NCBI GenBank assembly: GCA_031081715.1
Contig: JAVHMA010000018.1
Coordinates: forward strand, 1 to 64,000
Length of the DNA stretch: 64,000 bases
Origin: Armatimonadota bacterium
GTDB lineage: Bacteria > Sysuimicrobiota > Sysuimicrobiia > Sysuimicrobiales > Humicultoraceae
Reading direction: 5' to 3'
Position numbers and translations under genes: made by a program. The notes beneath the pieces were generated by a model. The model made no database searches. It saw nothing but the letters and a program-made list of their open reading frames with translations, and was not told the DNA's origin. Positions 15,969 through 38,584 of this stretch are shown piece after piece. Positions within the stretch are counted from its first letter, which is position 1; every line of letters begins with the position of its first letter.

Positions 15969-16690
15969 GCGCGCGGCGATTCTACGTCGCCCCGCCGGGC
16001 CTCGACGGCGAGAGCGTGACGTTCGGGCCGCGTGAGTCACGGCACATCGCCACGGTGCTGCGCCTGCGGCCCGGCACACGTCTGCGCGCGTTCGACGGCC
16101 GGCAGGAGGTCGAGGTTGAGGTCGTGGCGCTCGGCGAGGCGGTCACGGCGCGGGTGGTCGGGCCGCGCCTGCCCGCGGTGCGTGAGGTCGCGGTCACGCT
16201 GCTCCAGGGGCTGCCGCGCGGTCCGAAGATGGACCTCATCGTTCGTACGGCCACCGAGGTCGGCATCACCGCGATCTGGCCCGTCCTTACCGCGCGCTCG
16301 CTGCCGCCCCCGGGCGCGGCGCGCGTCGCCCGCTGGATGCGCGTCGCCCGGGAGGCGGCCCGGCAGTGCGGCCGCACGGACCCACCCGAGGTACGCCCGG
16401 CGCGACCGCTCGCGGAGGCGCTGGCCGATCTCGGCCCGGTGGACCTCTTCGTGGTCCCCTGGGAAGAGGAGCCCCGGCCGATCGGCGCGCTCATTGCCGG
16501 CACGACGTTCCAGGCCGCGGCCGTGCTGATCGGGCCCGAGGGCGGGCTGGCCGCCGCCGATGTCGCCGCCGCGCGCGCCGCGGGCGGGCAGACCGTCTCG
16601 CTGGGGCCCCGCCTGCTGCGCACCGAGACGGCGGGCGCGGTCTGCGCCGCCATCCTCCTCTATGAGCGGCTCCTGCGGCCCCGTTCCTAG
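15965..16690 (+). CDS. rsmE: 16S rRNA (uracil1498-N3)-methyltransferase
   Basis: 241 residues. N-terminal PUA-like part with ESRHIATVLRLRPG, C-terminal SPOUT knot with LIGPEGGLAAADV and LGPRLLRTETA, both diagnostic of RsmE. The GTG start overlaps prmA by four bases; the longer upstream frame is a shadow. Last gene of the CIRCE operon; the arginine promoter begins right after it. Confidence 0.93.
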   Translation: MSARRFYVAPPGLDGESVTFGPRESRHIATVLRLRPGTRLRAFDGRQEVEVEVVALGEAVTARVVGPRLPAVREVAVTLLQGLPRGPKMDLIVRTATEVGITAIWPVLTARSLPPPGAARVARWMRVAREAARQCGRTDPPEVRPARPLAEALADLGPVDLFVVPWEEEPRPIGALIAGTTFQAAAVLIGPEGGLAAADVAAARAAGGQTVSLGPRLLRTETAGAVCAAILLYERLLRPRS

Positions 16691-16694
16691 CCCG

Positions 16695-16732
16695 GTTGCA
16701 TTTCCATGCAATTAGATGTATGATTATTCTAT
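16695..16732 (+). promoter_or_regulatory. tandem ARG boxes (ArgR operator)
   Basis: Two 18-base palindromic sites in an AT-rich island. Box 1 (16695-16712) contains TTGCAT-TTCC-ATGCAA; box 2 (16715-16732) contains TGTAT-GATT-ATTCT. They are two bases apart, 20 bases centre to centre, close to the paired arrangement bound by ArgR hexamers in other bacteria. They cover both promoter hexamers and the argC start codon. The repressor gene argR is the last gene of the same operon. Confidence 0.78.
16696..16724 (+). promoter_or_regulatory. argC promoter, probably leaderless
   Basis: TTGCAT (16696-16701), 17-base spacer, TATGAT (16719-16724). The start of transcription expected about seven bases downstream coincides with the A of ATG at 16731. 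No ribosome binding site is visible. Confidence 0.7.
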
Positions 16733-17765
16733 GGTCCGCGTGAGCGTCGTCGGGGCGTCCGGGTACGGTGGCGGCGAGCTGGTGCGCCTGCTCGCCGCGC
16801 ACCCTGACTGCACGCTCGTCCACCTGACCGCGGAGACGCGCAAGGGCGAGCCCTACGGCGAGGTTTTCCCGAACCTGCGCGGCATCGTCCCCCACGCCAC
16901 GGAGGAGGCCGACCCGGCGGCGATCGCCGCGGACTCGGACGTGGTGTTCTTCGCGCTGCCCAACGGCGTGCCGATGACGATGGCGCCCGCGCTGGGCCCG
17001 CGCGTGAAGATCGTCGACCTGGGAGCCGACTTCCGCTTCCGCGACCCAGCGACCTACGCGGCCTGGTACCGCGCCGAGCACGCCGCCCCGGGGCTGCTCG
17101 CCGAGGCGGTCTACGGGCAGCCCGAGCTCCACCGCGAGGCGATCCGCGCCGCGCGCATCGTCGGCAATCCGGGCTGCTATCCCACGGCGGCGCTGATCGC
17201 GGCGGCGCCGTTCGTCCGCACTGGCGTCGTTGAGCGCGACGGCATCGTGGTGGACGCGAAGTCGGGCGTCTCCGGGGCGGGCCGCGGCGTCTCCGCGGGC
17301 ACGCACTTCTCCGAGGTGAACGAGAACGTCAGGCCCTACAATGTGGCCGCGCACCGCCACGCGCCTGAGATCGAGCAGGAGCTCGCCGCGCTGGCCGGGG
17401 CGCCGGTGACGGTGACCTTCGTCCCGCATCTGATCCCGATGACGCGCGGCATTCTGACCACGGTCTACATGCGGCTCGCCCACGGGCTGACCGCGGCCGA
17501 GGCCGAGGGGGTGCTCCGAGAGGCGTACGCACAGGAGCCGTTCGTGCGCGTGCTGGCCGGCGGTCTGCCGCAGACGAAGGCGACCTTCGGCTCGAACTAC
17601 TGCGACGTCGCGGTGCGCGTGGACGCGCGCGCGCGTCTGCTGATCGCGATGGCGGCGATCGACAACCTGGTGAAGGGCGCCTCGGGTCAGGCGATCCAGA
17701 ACATGAACCTGATGTGCGGGTTGCCCGAGCGCTGCGGGCTTGAGGGCGCGCCGCTCTATCCCTAG
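16731..17765 (+). CDS. argC: N-acetyl-gamma-glutamyl-phosphate reductase
   Basis: 344 residues. Begins MVRVSVVGASGYGGGELVRLL, the nucleotide-binding start of ArgC; catalytic cysteine Cys149 in VGNPGCYPTAA. Third step of ornithine synthesis: NADPH-dependent reduction of acetylglutamyl phosphate. The ATG at 16731 is preferred over the in-frame ATG at 16716, because the latter lies inside the -10 element and adds MYDYS, which is not typical of the family. Confidence 0.95.
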   Translation: MVRVSVVGASGYGGGELVRLLAAHPDCTLVHLTAETRKGEPYGEVFPNLRGIVPHATEEADPAAIAADSDVVFFALPNGVPMTMAPALGPRVKIVDLGADFRFRDPATYAAWYRAEHAAPGLLAEAVYGQPELHREAIRAARIVGNPGCYPTAALIAAAPFVRTGVVERDGIVVDAKSGVSGAGRGVSAGTHFSEVNENVRPYNVAAHRHAPEIEQELAALAGAPVTVTFVPHLIPMTRGILTTVYMRLAHGLTAAEAEGVLREAYAQEPFVRVLAGGLPQTKATFGSNYCDVAVRVDARARLLIAMAAIDNLVKGASGQAIQNMNLMCGLPERCGLEGAPLYP

Positions 17766-17781
17766 CGTGGAGGTGGCAGGC

Positions 17782-19002
17782 ATGGCCGTCGCGTCGAGTC
17801 GGGTGACGCCGATCGACGGCGGGGTGACCAGTCCCCGGGGATTTCGTGCCGCGGGCATCCACTGCGGCATCAAGTCGCAAGCCCCCGACCTGGCGCTGGT
17901 GGTCGCCGATCGACCGGCCGCGGCGGCGGGCATGTTCACCCAGATCGCGACGCGCGCCGCGCCGGTGGTGCTCAACGAGGCGAAGCTGCGCGCCGCAGGT
18001 CGGGCGCAGGCCGTCGTCATCAACAGCGGTAACGCGAACGCCTGCGTGGGCGCGCGTGGGTACGACGACGCGCGCGCGATGACCGCGGCGGTGGCCGTGG
18101 CGCTGGGGATCGACGAGGCGCTCGTGCTCGGCGCCAGCACCGGGGTCATCGGCCGACCGCTCCCGGTGGACCGCATCGTCGCCGCGGTGCCGGCGCTGGT
18201 CGCGGCACTCGGGTCCGACAGCGCGGCGGCCGCGCGCGCGATCATGACCACCGACGCGTTCCCCAAGACCGCGGCGGCGCGGGTAGATGTGGGTGACGGC
18301 ACCATCACGATCGGCGGCATGGCCAAAGGTGCCGGAATGATCCACCCGGACATGGCCACCATGATCGCGGTCATCGCCACCGACGCGGCGCTCGACCCGG
18401 CGGTCCTGCGGGCCGCGCTGCGCGGCGCCGTCGACCGCACGTTCAACTGCATCAGCGTGGACGGCGACACGAGCACGAGCGACAGCGTCTTCGTCCTCGC
18501 CAGCGGCGCGGCAGGCCTGGTCCCGATCGCGCCTGACGGAGAGCGTTACCAGGCGTTCCTGGCCGGACTCACCGACGTGGCGGCGCGGCTGGCGACGCTG
18601 ATCGTCCGCGACGGCGAGGGTGCCACGCGGGTGGTGGAGGTGCGCGTGACCGGTGCGCGGTCTGACGCCGATGCGCGCCTGGCGGCCCGGACCATCATGA
18701 CCTCGCTGTTGGTCAAGACGATGTTCCACGGCGCCGAGCTCAACTGGGGCCGGCTCGTCGCGGCGGCCGGGCGCAGCGGCGCGGCGGTGGACCCGGACCG
18801 GATCGCGGTGGCGATCGGCGAGCACTGGGTGGTGGAGGGTGGCGTGGGCCGGCCCGAGCGCTACCCGCTTGCCGAGCCCCTGCTCCGCGCGCCGGAGGTG
18901 CGCGTGACCGTCGATCTGGGCCTGGGCGAGGGGCGGTATACCGGCTGGACCAGCGACCTCGGCGAGGCGTACGTCCGGATCAACAGCGGGTACCTGACGT
19001 GA
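17782..19002 (+). CDS. argJ: bifunctional ornithine acetyltransferase / N-acetylglutamate synthase
   Basis: 406 residues. Ntn-type enzyme that cuts itself before Thr193 in the motif KGAGMIHPDMATM. It moves the acetyl group from acetylornithine to glutamate, so the pathway is the cyclic version. INSGNANACVG and LVKTMFHGAELNWGR are further conserved blocks. The ATG at 17782 has GGAGG eight bases upstream. Whether it can also use acetyl-CoA (true bifunctionality) cannot be read from sequence. The stop overlaps argB (GTGA). Confidence 0.94.
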   Translation: MAVASSRVTPIDGGVTSPRGFRAAGIHCGIKSQAPDLALVVADRPAAAAGMFTQIATRAAPVVLNEAKLRAAGRAQAVVINSGNANACVGARGYDDARAMTAAVAVALGIDEALVLGASTGVIGRPLPVDRIVAAVPALVAALGSDSAAAARAIMTTDAFPKTAAARVDVGDGTITIGGMAKGAGMIHPDMATMIAVIATDAALDPAVLRAALRGAVDRTFNCISVDGDTSTSDSVFVLASGAAGLVPIAPDGERYQAFLAGLTDVAARLATLIVRDGEGATRVVEVRVTGARSDADARLAARTIMTSLLVKTMFHGAELNWGRLVAAAGRSGAAVDPDRIAVAIGEHWVVEGGVGRPERYPLAEPLLRAPEVRVTVDLGLGEGRYTGWTSDLGEAYVRINSGYLT

Positions 19003-19916
19003 GCCCGCGCGCGGCGTCCCGAGGCCGCAGGACTCCGGTGCCGGCGCCCGCGGTCGCACGACCGGACTCGGCGACCGAGGCGCGCCTGATCGCCGCGGGG
19101 GTCCGGTACGCCGCGGCCTGGCGGGGCAAGACCGTGGTGGTGAAGTACGGGGGGAGCGTGCTCGAAGCCGGCGCCGCGGGTACCGTGGTCGAGGACCTGG
19201 TGCTGCTCAAACGCGCCGGCGTGGATCCGGTGCTCGTCCACGGCGGCGGGCCGGAGATCACCCGGATGCTCGAGCGGGTGGGCAAGGAGAGCCACTTCCT
19301 GGGCGGCCTGCGGGTCACCGACGCGGAGACGATGGAGATCGTCGAGATGGTGCTCGCGGGCCGCGCCAACAAGGCGCTGGTCACGATGATCGGCGTCGCG
19401 GGCGGGAGCGCCGTGGGCCTCTCGGGGAAGGATGCGGGGCTGCTGCAGGCCCGGCGGCTGCGCGAGCCCGCCGAGTTGGGGCTGGTGGGCGAGGTCGTCG
19501 AGGTGCGGCCGCAGATCGTGCAGACGGTGAGCGCCACCGGGCACGTGCCGGTGATCGCGTCGGTGGGCGTCGGCGAGGGCGGCGAGAGCCTCAACCTGAA
19601 CGCCGACCACGCGGCGGGCGCGCTGGCCGCGGCGCTGGGCGCGAGCAAGCTGATCATCCTGACCGACGTACCGGGCGTGATGCAGGTCGCCGACGGCGCG
19701 CCGCGCCTGCTCTCGAGCCTGACGGCCGCCGAGGCGCGGCGGCTCGTCGCCGACGGCGTGGTCTCGCGCGGGATGATCCCGAAGGTCGAGGCCTGCCTGG
19801 ACGCGATCGACCGCGGCGTGCCCAGCGCCCACATCATCGGTACGGACGCGCCGCACGCGCTGCTGGTGGAGCTGTTCACCGAAGAAGGCATCGGCACGAT
19901 GATCACCCCGGGCTAG
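18999..19916 (+). CDS. argB: acetylglutamate kinase
   Basis: 305 residues. Amino-acid-kinase fold with VVKYGGSVLE (phosphate loop), LVHGGGPEITRML and SLNLNADHAAGALA. Second step of ornithine synthesis. The N-terminus carries about 20 extra Arg/Pro/Ala-rich residues before the fold begins. Some arginine-inhibited ArgB enzymes have an N-terminal helix; this stretch could be that, though its composition does not clearly show a helix. Confidence 0.95.
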   Translation: MSPRAASRGRRTPVPAPAVARPDSATEARLIAAGVRYAAAWRGKTVVVKYGGSVLEAGAAGTVVEDLVLLKRAGVDPVLVHGGGPEITRMLERVGKESHFLGGLRVTDAETMEIVEMVLAGRANKALVTMIGVAGGSAVGLSGKDAGLLQARRLREPAELGLVGEVVEVRPQIVQTVSATGHVPVIASVGVGEGGESLNLNADHAAGALAAALGASKLIILTDVPGVMQVADGAPRLLSSLTAAEARRLVADGVVSRGMIPKVEACLDAIDRGVPSAHIIGTDAPHALLVELFTEEGIGTMITPG

Positions 19917-19929
19917 GGAGGGGACGCGC

Positions 19930-21135
19930 ATGACCACCGACGACGTCATCGCCACGGCCGACCGGTACCTGATGCCCACCTACCGCCGGGCGCCCGTCGC
20001 GTTCTCCCACGGCCAGGGCGTCTGGCTCTACGACCTGGAGGGGAAGCGCTACCTGGACTTCATCGCCGGGATCGCGGTGAGCGCGCTTGGCCACGCGCAT
20101 CCCGCGCTGGTCGCCGCGATCCAGCGGCAGGCCGCGCGTCTCCTGCACACCTCCAACCTGTTCCACATCGCCGAGCAGGCCGAACTGGCGCGCGTGCTCT
20201 GCGAGGCCTCAGGCTTCGATCGGGCGTTCTTCTGTAACAGCGGCGCCGAGGCCGTCGAGGCGGCCATCAAGCTGGCGCGCCGCTGGGGGCGCCGCGGCGA
20301 GCGGCCACGGTATGAGATCATCGTCGCCCAGCAGTCTTTCCACGGCCGGACGATGGGCGCGCTGTCCGCGACGATGCAGGCCAAATACCAGGACGCGTTC
20401 GCGCCGCTGGTGCCCGGGTTCGTGGCCGTGCCGTACAACGACATGGACGCCGTCCCCGGGGCGACGACCGACCGCACGGTTGCGATCATGCTGGAGCCCG
20501 TGCAGGGCGAGGGCGGGGTGGTTCCGGCGCAGGCCGACTACCTCCGCAGCGTGCGCGAGTGGTGCGACGCGCGTGACCTGCTGTTGATCTTCGACGAGGT
20601 GCAGACCGGGATCGGCCGGACCGGCCGGCTCTTCGCCTTCGAGCACTACGGCATCCGCCCCGACGTGATGACCGTGGCCAAGGGCCTGGGCGGCGGGGTG
20701 CCGATCGGCGCGGTGCTCGCGACCGAGCGGGCCATGGCCCTGGTGCCGGGTGACCACGGCAGCACGTTCGGCGGCAACCCGCTGGCCGCCGCCGCGGCCC
20801 TGGCGGTCCTGGCGACTGTGGCCGAGCAGCGCCTGTCGGAACACGCGGCGGCGATGGGTCAGCGGCTGGTGGAAGGGCTGCGGCGGCTCGTGGACCGTGG
20901 CCTCGCCCGGGGCGTGCGCGGCCTGGGGCTGCTGATCGCGCTCGAGGTGAGCGGCGAGGCCGCGGCGGTCGTGGATCAGTGCCGCGAGGCCGGCCTACTC
21001 GTGAACGCCGTCGGCCCGGCCGCGATCCGCCTGGCACCGCCGCTGGTCGTCCAGCCCGCCGAGATCGACGAGGCGGTCGCGATCCTCGAGCGTGTGCTAC
21101 CATCCGTGCAGGTTCCCGCGGCGCCGGCCCGCTAG
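19930..21135 (+). CDS. argD: acetylornithine aminotransferase
   Basis: 401 residues, class III PLP aminotransferase. PLP lysine Lys251 in VAKGLGGGVPIGAV; FCNSGAEAVEAAIKLAR and LIFDEVQTGIGRTG are typical. Transfers the amino group from glutamate to acetylglutamate semialdehyde; family members often also act in lysine synthesis. AGGGAGG lies just before the ATG. Confidence 0.94.
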   Translation: MTTDDVIATADRYLMPTYRRAPVAFSHGQGVWLYDLEGKRYLDFIAGIAVSALGHAHPALVAAIQRQAARLLHTSNLFHIAEQAELARVLCEASGFDRAFFCNSGAEAVEAAIKLARRWGRRGERPRYEIIVAQQSFHGRTMGALSATMQAKYQDAFAPLVPGFVAVPYNDMDAVPGATTDRTVAIMLEPVQGEGGVVPAQADYLRSVREWCDARDLLLIFDEVQTGIGRTGRLFAFEHYGIRPDVMTVAKGLGGGVPIGAVLATERAMALVPGDHGSTFGGNPLAAAAALAVLATVAEQRLSEHAAAMGQRLVEGLRRLVDRGLARGVRGLGLLIALEVSGEAAAVVDQCREAGLLVNAVGPAAIRLAPPLVVQPAEIDEAVAILERVLPSVQVPAAPAR

Positions 21136-21159: not shown

Positions 21160-22389
21160 ATGACCGTCCACAAGATCGCGCTCGCGTACTCCGGAGGCCT
21201 GGACACCTCCGTCGCGATTCCCTGGCTGCGGGAGACCTACGGCGCCCAGGTCGTCGCCGTCATCGTGGACATCGGCCAGGGCGAGGATCTGGCCGCGGTG
21301 CGCGACAAGGCACTGGCGAGCGGCGCGGTCGCCGCGCATGTCGTGGACGTGCGGCGGACCTTCGTGACCGACTATCTGGTCCCCATGGTGCAGGCCGGCG
21401 CGGTCTACGAGGGGCGGTACATGCTGGGCACCGCGATCGCGCGACCGCTGATCGCCAAAACCCAGGTGGAGGTCGCTCTGGCCGAGGGCGCCGACGCCCT
21501 GGCGCACGGGTGCACCGGCAAGGGCAACGACCAGGTGCGGTTCGAGCTCGCCTACCAGGCGCTGGCGCCGCAGCTGGCGGTGATCGCGCCGTGGCGCCAG
21601 TGGCACATCCGGTCGCGCGAGCAGGCGATCGAGTACGCGGAGCGCCACGGCGTGCCGGTGACGGCGACCCGGGCGCGGCCCTACAGCGTGGACCGTAACC
21701 TGTGGCACTGCAGCAGCGAGGCGGGCATCCTGGAGGACATTTGGGCCGAACCGCCGGACGACCTCTACCAGTACACCGACGACCCGCGCACCGCGCCAGA
21801 CGACCCCGAGTACGTGGAGATCGAGTTCGAGGAGGGCCGGCCGGTCGCGCTCGACGGCGCGCGGCTGGACCCGCTGGCCCTGATGGAGCGGCTCAACGCC
21901 GCCGGCCGCCGCCACGGCGTCGGCCGCATCGACATGGTCGAGAACCGGCTCGTGGGGATGAAGACGCGCGGGGTCTACGAGACGCCGGGCGGCACGATCC
22001 TCCATGTGGCCCACCGCGACCTCGAGGCGATCACCGTGGAGCGCGACTGCCAGCACTACAAGCTCCAGATCGGCCCGCGCTACGCCGAGCTGGTCTACTA
22101 CGGCCAGTGGTTCTCCCCGCTGCGGCAGGCGTTCGACGCGTTCGTCGCGTCCACGCAGCGCACGGTCACCGGATCGGTGCGCGTGAAGCTGTTCAAGGGC
22201 TCGGCCATGGCCGTCGGCCGGCGCTCGCCGCAGTCGCTGTACGATATGCACCTGGCGACGTTCGGCGAGGACGCGGTCTATGACCAGCGCGACGCGGGCG
22301 GCTTCATCGCGTTGTGGGGGTTGCCGACCCGCGTCTTCGCCCAGGCGAACCCGCGGTTGATCCGCTCGCTCCGTGAGCCCGTCCGCTAG
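21160..22389 (+). CDS. argG: argininosuccinate synthase
   Basis: 409 residues. ATP-pyrophosphatase loop LAYSGGLDTS near the N-terminus, ACTGKGNDQVRFE-like block (HGCTGKGNDQVRFEL) and YAELVYYGQWFSPLR. Joins citrulline and aspartate. GGGGGAGAGGAG precedes the ATG. The end overlaps argH by 17 bases. Confidence 0.96.
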   Translation: MTVHKIALAYSGGLDTSVAIPWLRETYGAQVVAVIVDIGQGEDLAAVRDKALASGAVAAHVVDVRRTFVTDYLVPMVQAGAVYEGRYMLGTAIARPLIAKTQVEVALAEGADALAHGCTGKGNDQVRFELAYQALAPQLAVIAPWRQWHIRSREQAIEYAERHGVPVTATRARPYSVDRNLWHCSSEAGILEDIWAEPPDDLYQYTDDPRTAPDDPEYVEIEFEEGRPVALDGARLDPLALMERLNAAGRRHGVGRIDMVENRLVGMKTRGVYETPGGTILHVAHRDLEAITVERDCQHYKLQIGPRYAELVYYGQWFSPLRQAFDAFVASTQRTVTGSVRVKLFKGSAMAVGRRSPQSLYDMHLATFGEDAVYDQRDAGGFIALWGLPTRVFAQANPRLIRSLREPVR

Positions 22390-23860
22390 ACCCGCGCCCT
22401 ACCGCATGTGGGGCGGCCGGTTCGGCGAGGAGCCGGACCCCGCGGTGACGCCGCTGCTCTCGGCGCTGGAGGTGGACGCGCACCTGCTGCGCTGGGACCT
22501 GCTCGGCAGCCTGGCGCACCTCACCTCCCTGGCCGAAGCAGGGGTCGTACCGGCCGAGGCGGCGCAGGCACTCGGCCGCGGCCTGCGCGAGATGCTCGCC
22601 GAGACCGACGCGGGTCGGCTTGAGGCGGCCGGCGACTACGAGGACGTGCACTCGTTCATCGAGGCGACGCTGGCTGCGAGGGTGGGCGTCCCCGCAGGCT
22701 GGCTCCACACCGGTCGTAGCCGCAACGACCAGGTCGTCACCGCCTTCCGGCTCGACCTCAAGGACCGCATCCGCCGGCTGGTGTCCGCGGTTGCCGATCT
22801 GCAGGAGGCGGTTCTGGCACAGGCCGAGCGCGCGGGCGAGCTGCTGGCGCCCGGCTACACGCACCTGCAGCGCGCGCAGCCGGTGCTCCTGGCCCACGCC
22901 TGGCTCGTGCACTGCTGGACGCTGGGGCGCGACACGGCCAGGCTGCGCGACGCCTACCGCCGGGTGGACGTCTCTCCGCTGGGCTCCGGCGCCATCGCCG
23001 GCACGGCCTTTCCCGTGGATCGGCGACGCCAGGCGAGCCTGCTCGGGTTCGCACAGATCAGCTCGAACAGCATCGACGCGACCGGCGACCGCGACTTCGT
23101 TTTCGAGGCGGTGGCCGCGGTGGTCGGCCTGCTCCTGCACCTCTCGCGCTGGGCGGAGGAGCTCCTGCTCTGGAGCAGCCAGGAGTTCGGCTTCGTCCGC
23201 CTCCCGGACGCGGTGCTCACGGGCAGCAGCCTGATGCCGCAGAAGCGCAACCCGGACCTGCTCGAACTGGTCCGCGCCCAGGCGGGCGTGGGGCTGGGCG
23301 CACTGGTCGGGTTAGGGGCCGTCCTCAAAGGCGTGCCCTACGGCTACCACCGTGACCTTCAGGAGGACAAGGCCCCGGCGGTCACCGCCTTCCAGTCAGC
23401 GGCCATGGCGGTGGCTGCCATGACCGTCGTCGCCAGGCGGCTGGAGGTGCGGGCCGACCGGCTGGCCGCAGCGCTTCGGGGCGGGTTCCTCACAGCGACC
23501 GAGGTCGCCGACTACCTGGTGCGGCGCGGCGTGGCGTTCCGCGAGGCCCACGAGCTCGCAGGCCGCGTGGTGCGCGCGGCCGAGGCTGCGGACTGCGAGC
23601 TGTGGGAGTTGCCGCTGGAGGCCTACCGCGCCGTCTCCCCGCGGTTCGAGGCCGACGTGCTCCAGGCGGTGACCCCGCGCGGCGCGGTGGACGCCCGGGA
23701 CACCCCGGGCGGGACCGCGCCCGGCCGCGTCGCCGAGGCGACTGCCGAGGCGCGCGCGACCGTGACCGTGGAGCGAGCCTGGGTCGAGCAGGCGGCCGCC
23801 GCGCAGGCCGAGGCAGAACGGCGCCTGCTCGAGGCGGCGCCTGGGGCGAAGCCCGCGTGA
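22373..23860 (+). CDS. argH: argininosuccinate lyase
   Basis: 495 residues, somewhat longer than the usual ~460, with an Ala/Glu-rich C-terminal tail (AWVEQAAAAQAEAERRLLEA) that looks like an added helix. Signature GSSLMPQKRNPD with the catalytic serine loop (Ser285/286), plus HTGRSRNDQV. Final step to arginine and fumarate. The GTG start lies within argG; the stop overlaps argR (GTGA). Confidence 0.95.
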   Translation: MSPSARPAPYRMWGGRFGEEPDPAVTPLLSALEVDAHLLRWDLLGSLAHLTSLAEAGVVPAEAAQALGRGLREMLAETDAGRLEAAGDYEDVHSFIEATLAARVGVPAGWLHTGRSRNDQVVTAFRLDLKDRIRRLVSAVADLQEAVLAQAERAGELLAPGYTHLQRAQPVLLAHAWLVHCWTLGRDTARLRDAYRRVDVSPLGSGAIAGTAFPVDRRRQASLLGFAQISSNSIDATGDRDFVFEAVAAVVGLLLHLSRWAEELLLWSSQEFGFVRLPDAVLTGSSLMPQKRNPDLLELVRAQAGVGLGALVGLGAVLKGVPYGYHRDLQEDKAPAVTAFQSAAMAVAAMTVVARRLEVRADRLAAALRGGFLTATEVADYLVRRGVAFREAHELAGRVVRAAEAADCELWELPLEAYRAVSPRFEADVLQAVTPRGAVDARDTPGGTAPGRVAEATAEARATVTVERAWVEQAAAAQAEAERRLLEAAPGAKPA

Positions 23861-24315
23861 GGGAGCGCGACCGGCGCATCCTCGAGATCATCGCCCGCCG
23901 GCCGGTCACCACCCAGGCGGAGCTGGTGGCGGCGCTGCGCGCCGCCGGAATCGCCGTCACCCAGGCCACCGTGTCGCGCGACATCCGCCGCCTGGGCCTG
24001 GTTAAGGTGCCCGCTGGTACCGGTCCCGCCCGCTACCAGGCGCCCCCGGCCTCGGTGCGACCCCCAGCCGCCGAGCTGGACGCGCGGCTGCGGCGCGCCT
24101 TTGGCGACTACGTGGCCGCCATCGAGGAGGGCAGCGGGCTCATCCTCGTCAAGACCAGCACGGGTAGCGCCGGCACCGTGGCCGAGGCGATCGATGAGGC
24201 CGACTGGCCTGATGTCGCCGGGACCGTGGCCGGGGACAACACCATCATCGTCGTGCCGCGCCGCGCCGGCGTGCGCCGCCAGGTGCTGCGGCGACTGCGG
24301 GGGTACCTGGTCTGA
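23857..24315 (+). CDS. argR: arginine repressor ArgR
   Basis: 152 residues from the GTG in a GTGA overlap with argH. N-terminal winged helix with TQATVSRDIRRLGLVKVP, C-terminal hexamerisation and arginine-binding domain with GTVAGDNTIIVVPR. Binds ARG boxes when arginine is high. The likely target, two ARG boxes, lies at the head of this same operon, so the circuit is closed within the cluster. Confidence 0.95.
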   Translation: MRERDRRILEIIARRPVTTQAELVAALRAAGIAVTQATVSRDIRRLGLVKVPAGTGPARYQAPPASVRPPAAELDARLRRAFGDYVAAIEEGSGLILVKTSTGSAGTVAEAIDEADWPDVAGTVAGDNTIIVVPRRAGVRRQVLRRLRGYLV

Positions 24316-24328
24316 GGCGGCCTGGAGG

Positions 24329-24354
24329 AGGCCTTCGGGCTGCGCCGAAGGCCT
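24329..24354 (+). terminator. hairpin after argR, no T-run
   Basis: AGGCCTTCGG and CCGAAGGCCT form a 10-bp stem with a six-base loop, 14 bases after argR. There is no run of T, so it may be a weak terminator or a message-stabilising stem rather than a full stop; phoH starts 18 bases later. Confidence 0.45.
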
Positions 24355-24372
24355 AGTGTCCGGGAGGTCCGC

Positions 24373-25362
24373 TTGGCCGAGCCTGCGACGCGCGAAGCGA
24401 CCATCGTGCTCCCGTCCGGCCCGGACGCCGTCGGCGTCCTGGGGCAGCACGACGCCCTCCTCCGGCTGGTGGAGGCCGAGCTGGGCGCCCAGCTCACCGT
24501 ACGGGGCGAGACCCTGGTGATCCGCGGCACGCCTGTCCAGGTCCGGGCAGCGGTCAGGGTCTTCGACCGTTTGCTCGCGGAGGCCGCCGGCGGCCGGATG
24601 CCCGATCCGGCCGAGGTACGCCGGGTGCTGCGCGCGCGGGACGGCGAGCCAGAGGAACCCGCGCCCGGCGGTGACGTCATCCTGGTCACCGCGGCCGGCA
24701 AGCCCGTCAGTCCGCGCACAGCTGGCCAGCGCGCCTACGTGACCGCGATCGGGGGCCACGATCTGACCTTTGCCATCGGCCCGGCCGGCACGGGCAAGAC
24801 CTACCTGGCGGTGGCCATGGCAGCGGTGGCGCTGCGGGCGCGAGCGGTCCAGCGCCTGGTGCTCACGCGACCGGCGGTCGAGGCCGGCGAGAAGCTCGGC
24901 TTCCTCCCGGGCGACATCGCGGCCAAGGTCGACCCCTACCTGCGCCCCCTGTACGACGCGCTCTACGAGATGCTCGGTCCGGAGCGTGTCGCGCGCCTGA
25001 TGGAGCGTGGCGTCATCGAGGTGGTACCGCTCGCGTTCATGCGGGGCCGCACGCTGAACGACGCCTTCATCATCCTGGACGAGGCCCAGAACACGACGCG
25101 CGAGCAGATGAAGATGTTCCTGACCCGGATGGGGTTCGGGTCGAAGGCCGTGGTCACCGGGGACGTCACGCAGATCGACCTGCCGCGGGACCGGACGTCG
25201 GGCCTGGTGGAGGCGCGCGAGGTCTTCCGGGGTCTCGGGGGGATCGCGTTCGTTGCCCTCACAGAAAGCGACGTGGTCCGTCACGAGCTCGTCCAGACCA
25301 TCGTCCGGGCCTACGAGCGGTTCGAAGCCGGCCGCGACGACAGCCAGGGGGGCTCGCCGTGA
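24373..25362 (+). CDS. PhoH-like ATPase
   Basis: 329 residues from a TTG start with GGGAGG six bases upstream. Walker A GPAGTGKT (136-143) and Walker B FIILDEAQNTT are in the spacing of PhoH-type P-loop ATPases; an N-terminal ~115-residue region precedes them, as in PhoL/YbeZ-type members. The family is linked to RNA metabolism and ribosome maturation and is often next to ybeY, as here. The exact reaction is not established. Overlaps the next gene by four bases. Confidence 0.92.
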   Translation: MAEPATREATIVLPSGPDAVGVLGQHDALLRLVEAELGAQLTVRGETLVIRGTPVQVRAAVRVFDRLLAEAAGGRMPDPAEVRRVLRARDGEPEEPAPGGDVILVTAAGKPVSPRTAGQRAYVTAIGGHDLTFAIGPAGTGKTYLAVAMAAVALRARAVQRLVLTRPAVEAGEKLGFLPGDIAAKVDPYLRPLYDALYEMLGPERVARLMERGVIEVVPLAFMRGRTLNDAFIILDEAQNTTREQMKMFLTRMGFGSKAVVTGDVTQIDLPRDRTSGLVEAREVFRGLGGIAFVALTESDVVRHELVQTIVRAYERFEAGRDDSQGGSP

Positions 25363-32277: not shown

Positions 32278-32900
32278 TGCGCCAGCGGTTGCGGAACTAC
32301 CTCATCGCCGGGTTCTTGGTCATCCTGCCCGTCGGCGTCACGGTCTTCGTCCTGATTGCCCTGTTCCGCTTCCTCGACAGCCTGCTGGGCCCGGTCTTCC
32401 GTTTCTTCGGCGTCGAGGTCCCGGGCCTGGGGTTGCTCTCCGGCATCGCGCTCATCCTGATCGTCGGGGCACTCGCCAGCAACGTGATCGGGCGCCGCGT
32501 GGTCGGCGCCTTCGACCAGGTGATGCTGCGCATCCCCTTCGCCCGGACCATCTACGGGGCGGTGAAACAGTTCAGCGATACGGTGTTCATGCAGAACCGG
32601 GCGGCGTTCCGCGAGGCCGTGCTCGTGGAGTGGCCGCGCCAGGGGCTCTACAGCGTCGGGTTCGTCACCGGCGAGACGCGCGGCGAGGCGCAGGTCAAGA
32701 CGACCGAGCGCGTGGTCAACGTGTTCATCGTCACCACCCCGAACCCGACGACCGGGTTCCTCTGCCTGGTGCCCGAGAGCCAGGTCGTCCGGTTGGAGAT
32801 GAGCGTCGAGGACGCGCTTAAGCTGGTGGTGTCCGCGGGGATCGTGGTGCCGCCGTACCGGGGCGAGGCATCCGGCGGCGCCCGGGTCCCGGGCGCGTGA
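32277..32900 (+). CDS. DUF502 membrane protein
   Basis: 207 residues, ATG overlapping the previous stop (TGATG). Two N-terminal membrane helices with NYLIAGFLVILPVGVTVFVL and LILIVGALASN, then RIPFARTIYGAVKQFSDTV and NPTTGFLCLVPESQV, the DUF502 blocks. Function of the family is not known; it occurs widely in bacteria and in plants, in membranes. Confidence 0.9.
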   Translation: MRQRLRNYLIAGFLVILPVGVTVFVLIALFRFLDSLLGPVFRFFGVEVPGLGLLSGIALILIVGALASNVIGRRVVGAFDQVMLRIPFARTIYGAVKQFSDTVFMQNRAAFREAVLVEWPRQGLYSVGFVTGETRGEAQVKTTERVVNVFIVTTPNPTTGFLCLVPESQVVRLEMSVEDALKLVVSAGIVVPPYRGEASGGARVPGA

Positions 32901-33337
32901 GGGATCGGCGGCGTACCGCCGCGGGGGCCCCGACCGTCGCCCAGCGGGGCGCGCTCGTCCGGGCGGCGCGCGCGGCCCGGTCGGCCGCGTACGCGCCCTA
33001 CTCCGGGTTCGCGGTGGGAGCCGCGGTGCTGACCGCTTCGGGCGCCGTGGTGGCGGGGTGCAACGTGGAGAACGCGTCGTACGGCCTCTCGGTGTGCGCC
33101 GAGCGGGTCGCGGTGCAGCGCGCGGTCGCCGAGGGCCACCGCGCGCTGGTCGCCGTGGCCGTGGCGAGCGGGCCTGCGGCCGCCCCGCCCTGCGGCGCGT
33201 GCCGGCAGGTACTGCTGGAGTTCGGGGTGCGGACCGTGCTGGTGGACCGGCCGGGTCGCGCGCCCCGCGTGCTCGCGCTGCGCACGCTGCTCGGGCAGCC
33301 TTTTGAACCTGCGGCGCTGCAACGGCGGCTTCCTTGA
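32897..33337 (+). CDS. cdd: cytidine deaminase
   Basis: 146 residues. Zinc site of the small tetrameric type: CAER with the catalytic glutamate and PCGACRQ, so three cysteines bind zinc; substrate block CNVENASYGLSV. Converts cytidine and deoxycytidine to uridine forms in pyrimidine salvage. GTG start overlaps DUF502 by four bases. Its TGA lies within the -35 of the mgtE promoter. Confidence 0.94.
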   Translation: MRDRRRTAAGAPTVAQRGALVRAARAARSAAYAPYSGFAVGAAVLTASGAVVAGCNVENASYGLSVCAERVAVQRAVAEGHRALVAVAVASGPAAAPPCGACRQVLLEFGVRTVLVDRPGRAPRVLALRTLLGQPFEPAALQRRLP

Positions 33338-33362
33338 CGCTCCCGACCCCCGGGAGTATAGT
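33334..33362 (+). promoter_or_regulatory. mgtE promoter
   Basis: TTGACG (33334-33339), 17-base spacer, TATAGT (33357-33362); expected start near 33369. The -35 contains the cdd stop codon. Confidence 0.72.
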
Positions 33363-33368
33363 GGTCGC

Positions 33369-33596
33369 GAGTTGCACGCCACCATGACGCGACGCGCAGG
33401 GTCGGGGACGTGTATGTTGCGCGACGGCTCATCACAGCGCTCCATCGGCGCCGCGCCCGCCCGGCCGGGCGGCCCGCGCGCGGGCCTCGTCCCGGCCGTG
33501 CCTGCGTCGTCGCGCCGCCTGCTGCCCGCGGCCTGACCCTTCGTGCGTCCCGCCGGCGCGAGCGCGCCGGCGCGCCCCATTACGTTGGAGTCCCGC
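33369..33596 (+). promoter_or_regulatory. long structured leader of mgtE
   Basis: About 228 transcribed bases before the preferred mgtE start. Three perfect palindromes can form hairpins: 33457-33472 (16 bases), 33472-33485 (14 bases), and a 10-bp stem CGCCGGCGCG/CGCGCCGGCG at 33551-33572 close to the ribosome binding site. None is followed by a T-run. A short frame (ATG 33384 to 33536) encodes about 50 Arg/Pro/Ala-rich residues. It does not match the M-box (ykoK) magnesium riboswitch by eye. A regulatory role is an inference. Confidence 0.4.
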
Positions 33597-37378: not shown

Positions 37379-37408
37379 GTCCCGCGGCACGCCGGGCAAT
37401 CACCGGCG

Positions 37409-37437
37409 TTGACCGGCTCCCCCGCGGTCAGTAGACT
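37409..37437 (+). promoter_or_regulatory. promoter of the glyQS T-box transcript
   Basis: TTGACC (37409-37414), 17-base spacer, TAGACT (37432-37437); start expected near 37444. Confidence 0.65.
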
Positions 37438-37443
37438 ATCCAG

Positions 37444-37681
37444 AGGACTGTCATCGCCACGGCGATGCGGGAGAGGACTACCCGCGGCAACCGCCGGAGA
37501 GAGCCCGCGCAGGGTGGAAGCGGGTGCGGACCGCGGGGAACGGCGCTCCCAAGCCGCGGGCGGCTGCGGCCGTCCCGCCGGGATCCGCCCGAGATCGCGG
37601 GCCGAGTGCCTGCGGCCTCCTGCCGCGGGAATCAGGGTGGAACCGCGGAGTTGCCGTCCCTGAGACGGCGCTCCGCGTTTT
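37444..37681 (+). promoter_or_regulatory. T-box riboswitch controlling glyQS
   Basis: T-box sequence GGGTGGAACCGCGG at 37635-37648, preceded by stem I elements (GGAGAGAGCC near 37495, GGGTGGAAGC in the distal loop near 37512). The specifier is read as GGC (Gly) at 37542-37544 in GAAC-GGC. The right part of the T-box sequence is also the left arm of the terminator, so antiterminator and terminator exclude each other. Uncharged tRNA-Gly should switch on glyQ, glyS and possibly ppdK downstream. Confidence 0.9.
37644..37681 (+). terminator. T-box-controlled intrinsic terminator before glyQ
   Basis: Two-part stem: CGCGGAG (37644-37650) with CTCCGCG (37671-37677), and GCCGTC (37653-37658) with GACGGC (37664-37669), then TTTT. 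The outer arm overlaps the T-box sequence. Confidence 0.85.
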
Positions 37682-37708
37682 CTGTGTCCGGCGATGCCGA
37701 AGGATCCG

Positions 37709-38584
37709 ATGACCTTTCAGGAGATGATCCTGGCGCTGCACCGATACTGGTCGGCGCGCGGGTGCGTGCTGGAGGAACCCTTCGACGTGGAGGTGGGCGC
37801 CGGCACCCTGCATCCGGCGACCTTCCTGCGCGCGCTGGGGCCAGAGCCGTGGCGGGTGGCCTACGTGCAGCCGAGCCGGCGGCCGGCCGACGGCCGCTAC
37901 GGCGAGAACCCGAGCCGCTTCTTCAAGCACTATCAGTATCAGGTCATCCTCAAGCCCGCGCCTGACGACGTCCAGGACCTCTACCTGCACAGCCTGGAGC
38001 GCCTGGGGCTGGTGCTCCGGCACCACGACATCCGCTTCCTCGAAGACGACTGGGAGGCCCCCACCCTGGGCGCGTGGGGTGTGGGCTGGCAGGTGTTCCT
38101 GGACGGGACCGAGATCACCCAGTTCACCTACTTCCAGCAGATGGGCGGGCTCGACCTGGACCTGATCTCGGTGGAGCTGACCTACGGGCTGGAGCGCCTG
38201 GCCATGTTCCTTCAGCGCAAGGCCCGGGCGTTCGACATCGCCTGGACGCACGGCGTCACCTATGGCGAGCTCCGGCGCGACGACGAACGGCAACAGTCCG
38301 CCTACGGCTTCGAGCACGGCGACCCGGACCGGCTGCGGCTGCTGTTCGACACCTACGAGGCCGAGGCCCGGCGCCTGCTTGAGATCCCGCTCGTGCTGCC
38401 GGCCTACGAGGCCGTGCTGAAGTGCTCGCACCTGTTCAACCTGCTGGACGCGCGCGGCGCGGTCGGCGTCACGCAGCGCGTCGAGCTGATGGGCCGCACG
38501 CGCGCGCTCGCGCGCGCGTGCGCGGCGGAGTACCTGCGCGGCCGCCGCGAGGCGGATGCGCGCGCCGGGGTCGCGCATGCCTAG
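37709..38584 (+). CDS. glyQ: glycine--tRNA ligase alpha subunit
   Basis: 291 residues from the ATG at 37709, which has GAAGGA four bases upstream and gives [14 protein letters not shown], close to the usual GlyQ start; an ATG at 37694 adds five residues. Catalytic subunit of the alpha2beta2 class II enzyme: [35 protein letters not shown]-type block and [18 protein letters not shown]. The end overlaps glyS by eight bases. Confidence 0.96.

Follow-up and report, generated by a model that had tools for sequence, protein, structure and literature searches.

Two putative ARG boxes, a promoter and the first start codon of an arginine gene cluster are packed together upstream of argC (16695-16732) in the window, by which is meant the whole 64,000-nucleotide stretch of DNA analysed. 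This raises the question of how the cluster is controlled from such a site and whether the argC mRNA carries any leader at all. The answer proposed here is that this is very probably the promoter-operator of argCJBDGHR, subject to arginine-dependent repression by ArgR, shared with argF and carA, and giving rise to a leaderless argC mRNA.

NCBIfam profiles identify seven genes, all on the + strand, in the order argC, argJ, argB, argD, argG, argH and argR. The first, argC (16731-17765; N-acetyl-gamma-glutamyl-phosphate reductase; TIGR01850, 434.6 bits), is followed by ORFs for argJ (17740-19002; NF003802, 466.9 bits from residue 28) and for the acetylglutamate kinase gene argB (18999-19916; TIGR00761, 243 bits), in both of which the real start is probably more internal. 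Beyond these lie argD (19930-21135; acetylornithine transaminase; TIGR00707, 501.8 bits), argG (21160-22389; argininosuccinate synthase; NF001770, 612.3 bits), argH (22373-23860; argininosuccinate lyase; TIGR00838, 498.9 bits) and argR (23857-24315; arginine repressor; PF02863 above cut-off), with the argR start overlapping the argH stop by 4 bp (GTGA). This argR is the single gene in the 2.98-Mb draft genome with a match to PF02863, the ArgR C-terminal domain. Its product scores 125.6 bits against TIGR01529 over residues 1-145, slightly below the cut-off of 130.45, and solved ArgR/AhrC chains align to it over the full length of both domains, the N-terminal winged helix and the C-terminal hexamer/arginine-binding domain that characterise ArgR/AhrC proteins. 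The arginine-site motif of this ArgR reads GDNT, compared to GDDT in solved ArgRs. A first-pass annotation of this DNA had put argR at the end of the operon; it is indeed the last arg gene, but the operon cannot be taken to end with it. A co-directional phoH-like ORF starts about 58 bp past argR (24315-24373), and because a terminator scan between the two detected none, the phoH-like gene may share the transcript of the argC cluster.

The full stretch from 16690 to 16740 reads gcccggTTGCATttccATGCAAttagatgTATGATtattctATGgtc on the + strand. Within it, positions 16695-16732 have a GC content of 11/38 in a window of about 73% GC and form the most AT-rich 38-mer cluster, unique at that level in the 64 kb. 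ARG box 1 (TTGCATTTCCATGCAA; 16696-16711, + strand) is a perfect 6-4-6 palindrome, TTGCAT-TTCC-ATGCAA, for which 0.0001 exact matches are expected per 64-kb window, and a scan of the window allowing up to 3 mismatches returned its own site, one 3-mismatch match and nothing else. ARG box 2 (16716-16731, + strand; core TGTAT-GATT-ATTCT) is weaker than box 1, with half-sites TGTAT (16717-16721) and ATTCT (16726-16730) that are 1 mismatch off symmetry, and its conserved parts, GTAT and ATTATTC, are present also at argF and carA. The box centres at 16703.5 and 16723.5 are 20 bp apart. Taken together, the sites have the properties of ARG boxes, which are imperfect palindromes of 16-20 bp paired at about 20-21 bp and placed over the promoters of arginine genes; the present boxes hold the -35 and -10, and the pair occurs at argC, argF and carA only. 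The -35 hexamer TTGCAT (16696-16701, + strand) lies inside box 1 and is weak, matching TTGACA at 3/6 positions, with its TTGCA conserved, while the -10 hexamer TATGAT (16719-16724, + strand) lies inside box 2 with 5/6 matches and a spacer of 17 bp. A generic sigma-70 scan called no promoter at 16695-16732 because the -35 matches at only 3/6 positions. The argC start codon, ATG at 16731-16733 on the + strand, follows the -10 by about 6-7 nt and is the predicted start of a leaderless transcript, with no SD-like sequence between the -10 and this ATG on direct reading. In all of this the first-pass annotation proved accurate, having described the AT-rich 38-base island with its two ARG boxes, the hexamer in each box, the 20-base spacing of the ArgR pattern and an argC without a ribosome binding site. 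It had also claimed that the operator covers both hexamers and the initiation codon, of which the former holds, while box 2 reaches into the initiation codon with no more than its outermost one or two bases.

The best matches to ArgC come from MAGs labelled Armatimonadetes (including CSP1-3), Terrabacteria group ANGP1 and Nitrosymbiomonas, the CSP1-3 lineage now being called Sysuimicrobiota (PMC11604079), and on the strength of these matches the genome probably belongs to that lineage. In the phylum group of 43 genomes, ArgC was found in 41 and the upstream DNA was readable in 40, and the operator-promoter precedes argC in 40/40 of these scorable genomes, which are related neighbours and not independent samples, being weak in a few (G002, G004). 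Box 1 is near-invariant across the 40 genomes, and the columns 16696-16710 and 16718-16729 are strongly conserved, with a drop just ahead of the start codon. In four close relatives (G007-G010; L093, L092, L095, L096) box 2 has decayed in its downstream half (TGTATAAAGACGTC and similar) with box 1 and the -10 half retained, such that one and a half boxes may suffice there. Outside the phylum, a MAG labelled Acidobacteria (L012, upstream of 1834) has a comparable promoter of ARG type, in which the ATG follows TATAAA at 7 nt.

The distance from the -10 to the argC start falls into two classes among the 40 genomes. In the short class of 19 genomes it is 6 (n=10), 7 (n=4), 9 (n=4) or 11 nt (n=1), while in the long class (21/40 genomes) it is 26-85 nt, and no genome among the 40 has a distance of 12 to 25 nt. 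Two modes of initiation would predict such an empty gap, in which an SD cannot fit. An SD of the GGAG/GAGG/AGGA type precedes argC in 16/21 long-class genomes, compared to none on the predicted transcripts of the short class. The start codon is ATG in 14/14 genomes with a distance of 6-7 nt, whereas GTG or TTG is used in 10/21 of the long class, the difference in start codon use between the 19 short and 21 long genomes giving a Fisher p of 0.004 with phylogeny ignored. The short state takes in the whole subclade of the window (7 species) and a second clade of 8, and occurs elsewhere singly or in a pair. On a quick ArgC tree with open forks there are at least 5 changes between short and long states, a rough minimum that carries no direction.

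A -10 at 6-7 bp before the start codon and the absence of an SD are the features of leaderless promoters, and the two-peaked spacing in the phylum supports the reading that argC here is leaderless. As such the leaderless start put forward in the first-pass annotation gains support from the spacing, the lack of an SD in the short class and the uniform use of ATG at 6-7 nt, while staying a prediction from sequence. In a census of the genome itself, which covered 843 kb and 542 genes called with a simple method, 7 starts had a hexamer matching TATAAT at 5 of 6 positions 6-7 nt ahead of them and 0 had the reversed hexamer there, with SD-like motifs at 129 starts compared to 43 in the control zone. 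An earlier census that took all in-frame start codons was too noisy; a clearer, still small, signal emerged once gene starts had been called beforehand. Leaderless starts thus seem, on these small numbers, to be a minority class beside SD-led ones in this genome.

The argC mRNA could instead be leadered, starting further upstream through read-through from an rsmE unit or from an undetected promoter, with argC translated via coupling or a non-SD mechanism. In keeping with such a transcript, an rsmE-type methyltransferase gene on the same strand ends at 16690, 40 nt before argC, and a terminator scan between the two genes detected none. Yet these 40 nt contain no SD, an operator placed exactly on the -35 and -10 makes sense only for a working promoter, and phylum members with short spacing and no SD form one of the two peaks described above. 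Together these points make a leadered transcript improbable.

A leaderless argC mRNA also depends on translation starting at 16731, and two other in-frame codons, ATG 16716 and GTG 16740, were weighed as argC starts, the latter implying a leader of about 9 nt. The mechanical ORF list takes ATG 16716 as the start of argC. This codon lies upstream of the -10 and inside the operator, in sequence that recurs at argF and carA and opens no gene there, while GTG 16740 is poorly kept, not being start-compatible in most relatives, and its use would trim the first conserved strand of the protein. The match to the ArgC family profile begins at residue 2 of the product starting at 16731, for which the expected N-terminus is VRVSVVGASGYGG, and ArgC starts in the relatives fall in the column of 16731 or one codon ahead of the homologous residue. 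Translation from either of the other codons is accordingly very improbable, and annotators should be warned that the argC start given by the ORF-finder, ATG 16716, is operator DNA.

The 2.98-Mb genome was searched with the 32-base operator pattern, allowing up to 3 mismatches, with the reversed pattern as control. The operator pattern gave 3 matches, upstream of argC, argF and carA, as the first-pass annotation had predicted for argF and carbamoyl-phosphate synthase, and the reversed pattern gave 0 matches in the same genome. The argF operator lies at C3:38397-38428 (argF gene 37399-38307) and that of carA at C22:33450-33481 (carA gene 32374-33417), with all three sites having TTGCAT in the -35 place and ATGTATGATTATTC round the -10. 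About 2e-9 exact matches are expected by chance per genome, and the confinement of the three operators to argC, argF and carA is strong evidence for an operator of the arginine regulon. The argF start codon comes 77 nt past the -10, directly after AAGGAGGA, and that of carA 29 nt past the -10, after a G-rich run. Unlike argC, with its short spacing and no SD, both are leadered, and therefore one operator-promoter serves leadered and predicted leaderless genes in the same genome, the three sites providing a control within the genome for the leaderless reading. Among the relatives, the argF operator is not general, argF being found mostly in other contexts without one, while the carA operator is present in most genomes. 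In two of them (G001, L187; G015, L208) the carA start codon seemingly lies 7-9 nt past the -10 of an ARG-type promoter. An adjacent pair of carbamoyltransferase-family genes (G000:C14:95765-97684; L121, L122) falls below the ornithine carbamoyltransferase cut-off and has counterparts in several relatives. In Bacillota, argC promoters have the same geometry (TTGNAT and TATAAT separated by 17 bp within a pair of ARG boxes) with the start at least 21 nt downstream and an SD. While AT-rich tracts in GC-rich genomes are generally known to mimic promoters readily, the genome-wide confinement to arg genes, the empty control and conservation throughout the phylum, with sites of the same kind in Bacillota, make it scarcely credible that the site is merely an AT-rich intergenic stretch resembling an operator by chance.

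For the promoter-operator of argCJBDGHR the following mechanism is proposed, in which we infer the binding of ArgR, its dependence on arginine and the exact 5′ end of the mRNA. With abundant arginine, the ArgR hexamer, made from the 3′ end of the cluster, would bind both boxes (16696-16731) and physically block both promoter hexamers together with the start point, switching off the cluster with argR included, and the same operator would let ArgR repress argF and carA elsewhere in the genome. When arginine is scarce, RNA polymerase would initiate at or beside A16731, producing an mRNA that opens with the argC AUG and would be translated by leaderless initiation. Points that count against this scheme are the weak -35, the imperfect downstream half of box 2 with its decay in four close relatives, and possible rsmE read-through with an upstream leader. 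It is doubtful that the leaderless form of argC has been favoured for a reason rather than by neutral drift, with the leader gained or lost at least 5 times while the operator stayed fixed; one such reason would be, for example, expression free of SD competition under arginine scarcity.

Each element of this arrangement is known. The argCJBDR cluster of Streptomyces (Streptomyces clavuligerus and Streptomyces coelicolor) likewise has tandem boxes with a 20-bp centre spacing upstream of argC and argR within the cluster, the S. clavuligerus operator consisting of two 18-nt ARG boxes 2 bp apart (PMC3293853). Compared with Streptomyces, the cluster described here adds argG and argH, its boxes are more AT-rich and the start codon sits at the downstream edge of the operator. 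In E. coli, unlike here, argR lies apart from the biosynthetic cluster, and we know of no leaderless arg gene in that species. The ArgR operators of E. coli are alike in having paired 18-bp ARG boxes overlapping the promoter, with a 2-bp box separation at argR (PMC3293853). The leaderless genes of Deinococcus-Thermus and Actinobacteria resemble argC here in having the -10 at 6-7 bp, no SD and a transcript start predicted to coincide with the start codon (PMC12340547; PMC3160421). In Deinococcus radiodurans, experiments have tested how leaderless genes are driven by a -10 motif placed about 6-7 bp ahead of the ORF (PMC12340547), and change between leaderless and SD-led forms among orthologues has been surveyed (PMC3160421). 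No ArgR operator features in those surveys, whereas argC here has one and has in addition a -35, itself part of box 1. A repressor-controlled leaderless operon is known in acuR-acuI-dddL of Rhodobacter sphaeroides (PMC3017554), which shares a leaderless first gene and a repressor encoded within the operon but differs in that the repressor is of the inducible TetR family and is encoded first, and in that the pathway is unrelated.

In the limited open-access literature searched, no report was found of an ArgR operator combined with a leaderless start at an arg operon. Since promoters covered by tandem ARG boxes are known, as is a -10 placed six to seven bp ahead of an ORF, their joint occurrence is less remarkable than the first-pass annotation judged, and the novelty is modest, lying in the combination and in the repeated gain or loss of a leader under a fixed operator. 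The locus adds CSP1-3/Sysuimicrobiota to the lineages with an ArgR regulon in which tandem ARG boxes cover the promoter, with the argC cluster, argF and carA as predicted members, and the genomes in which one operator occurs with the leader present or absent offer a clean series for the conversion of SD-led to leaderless genes.
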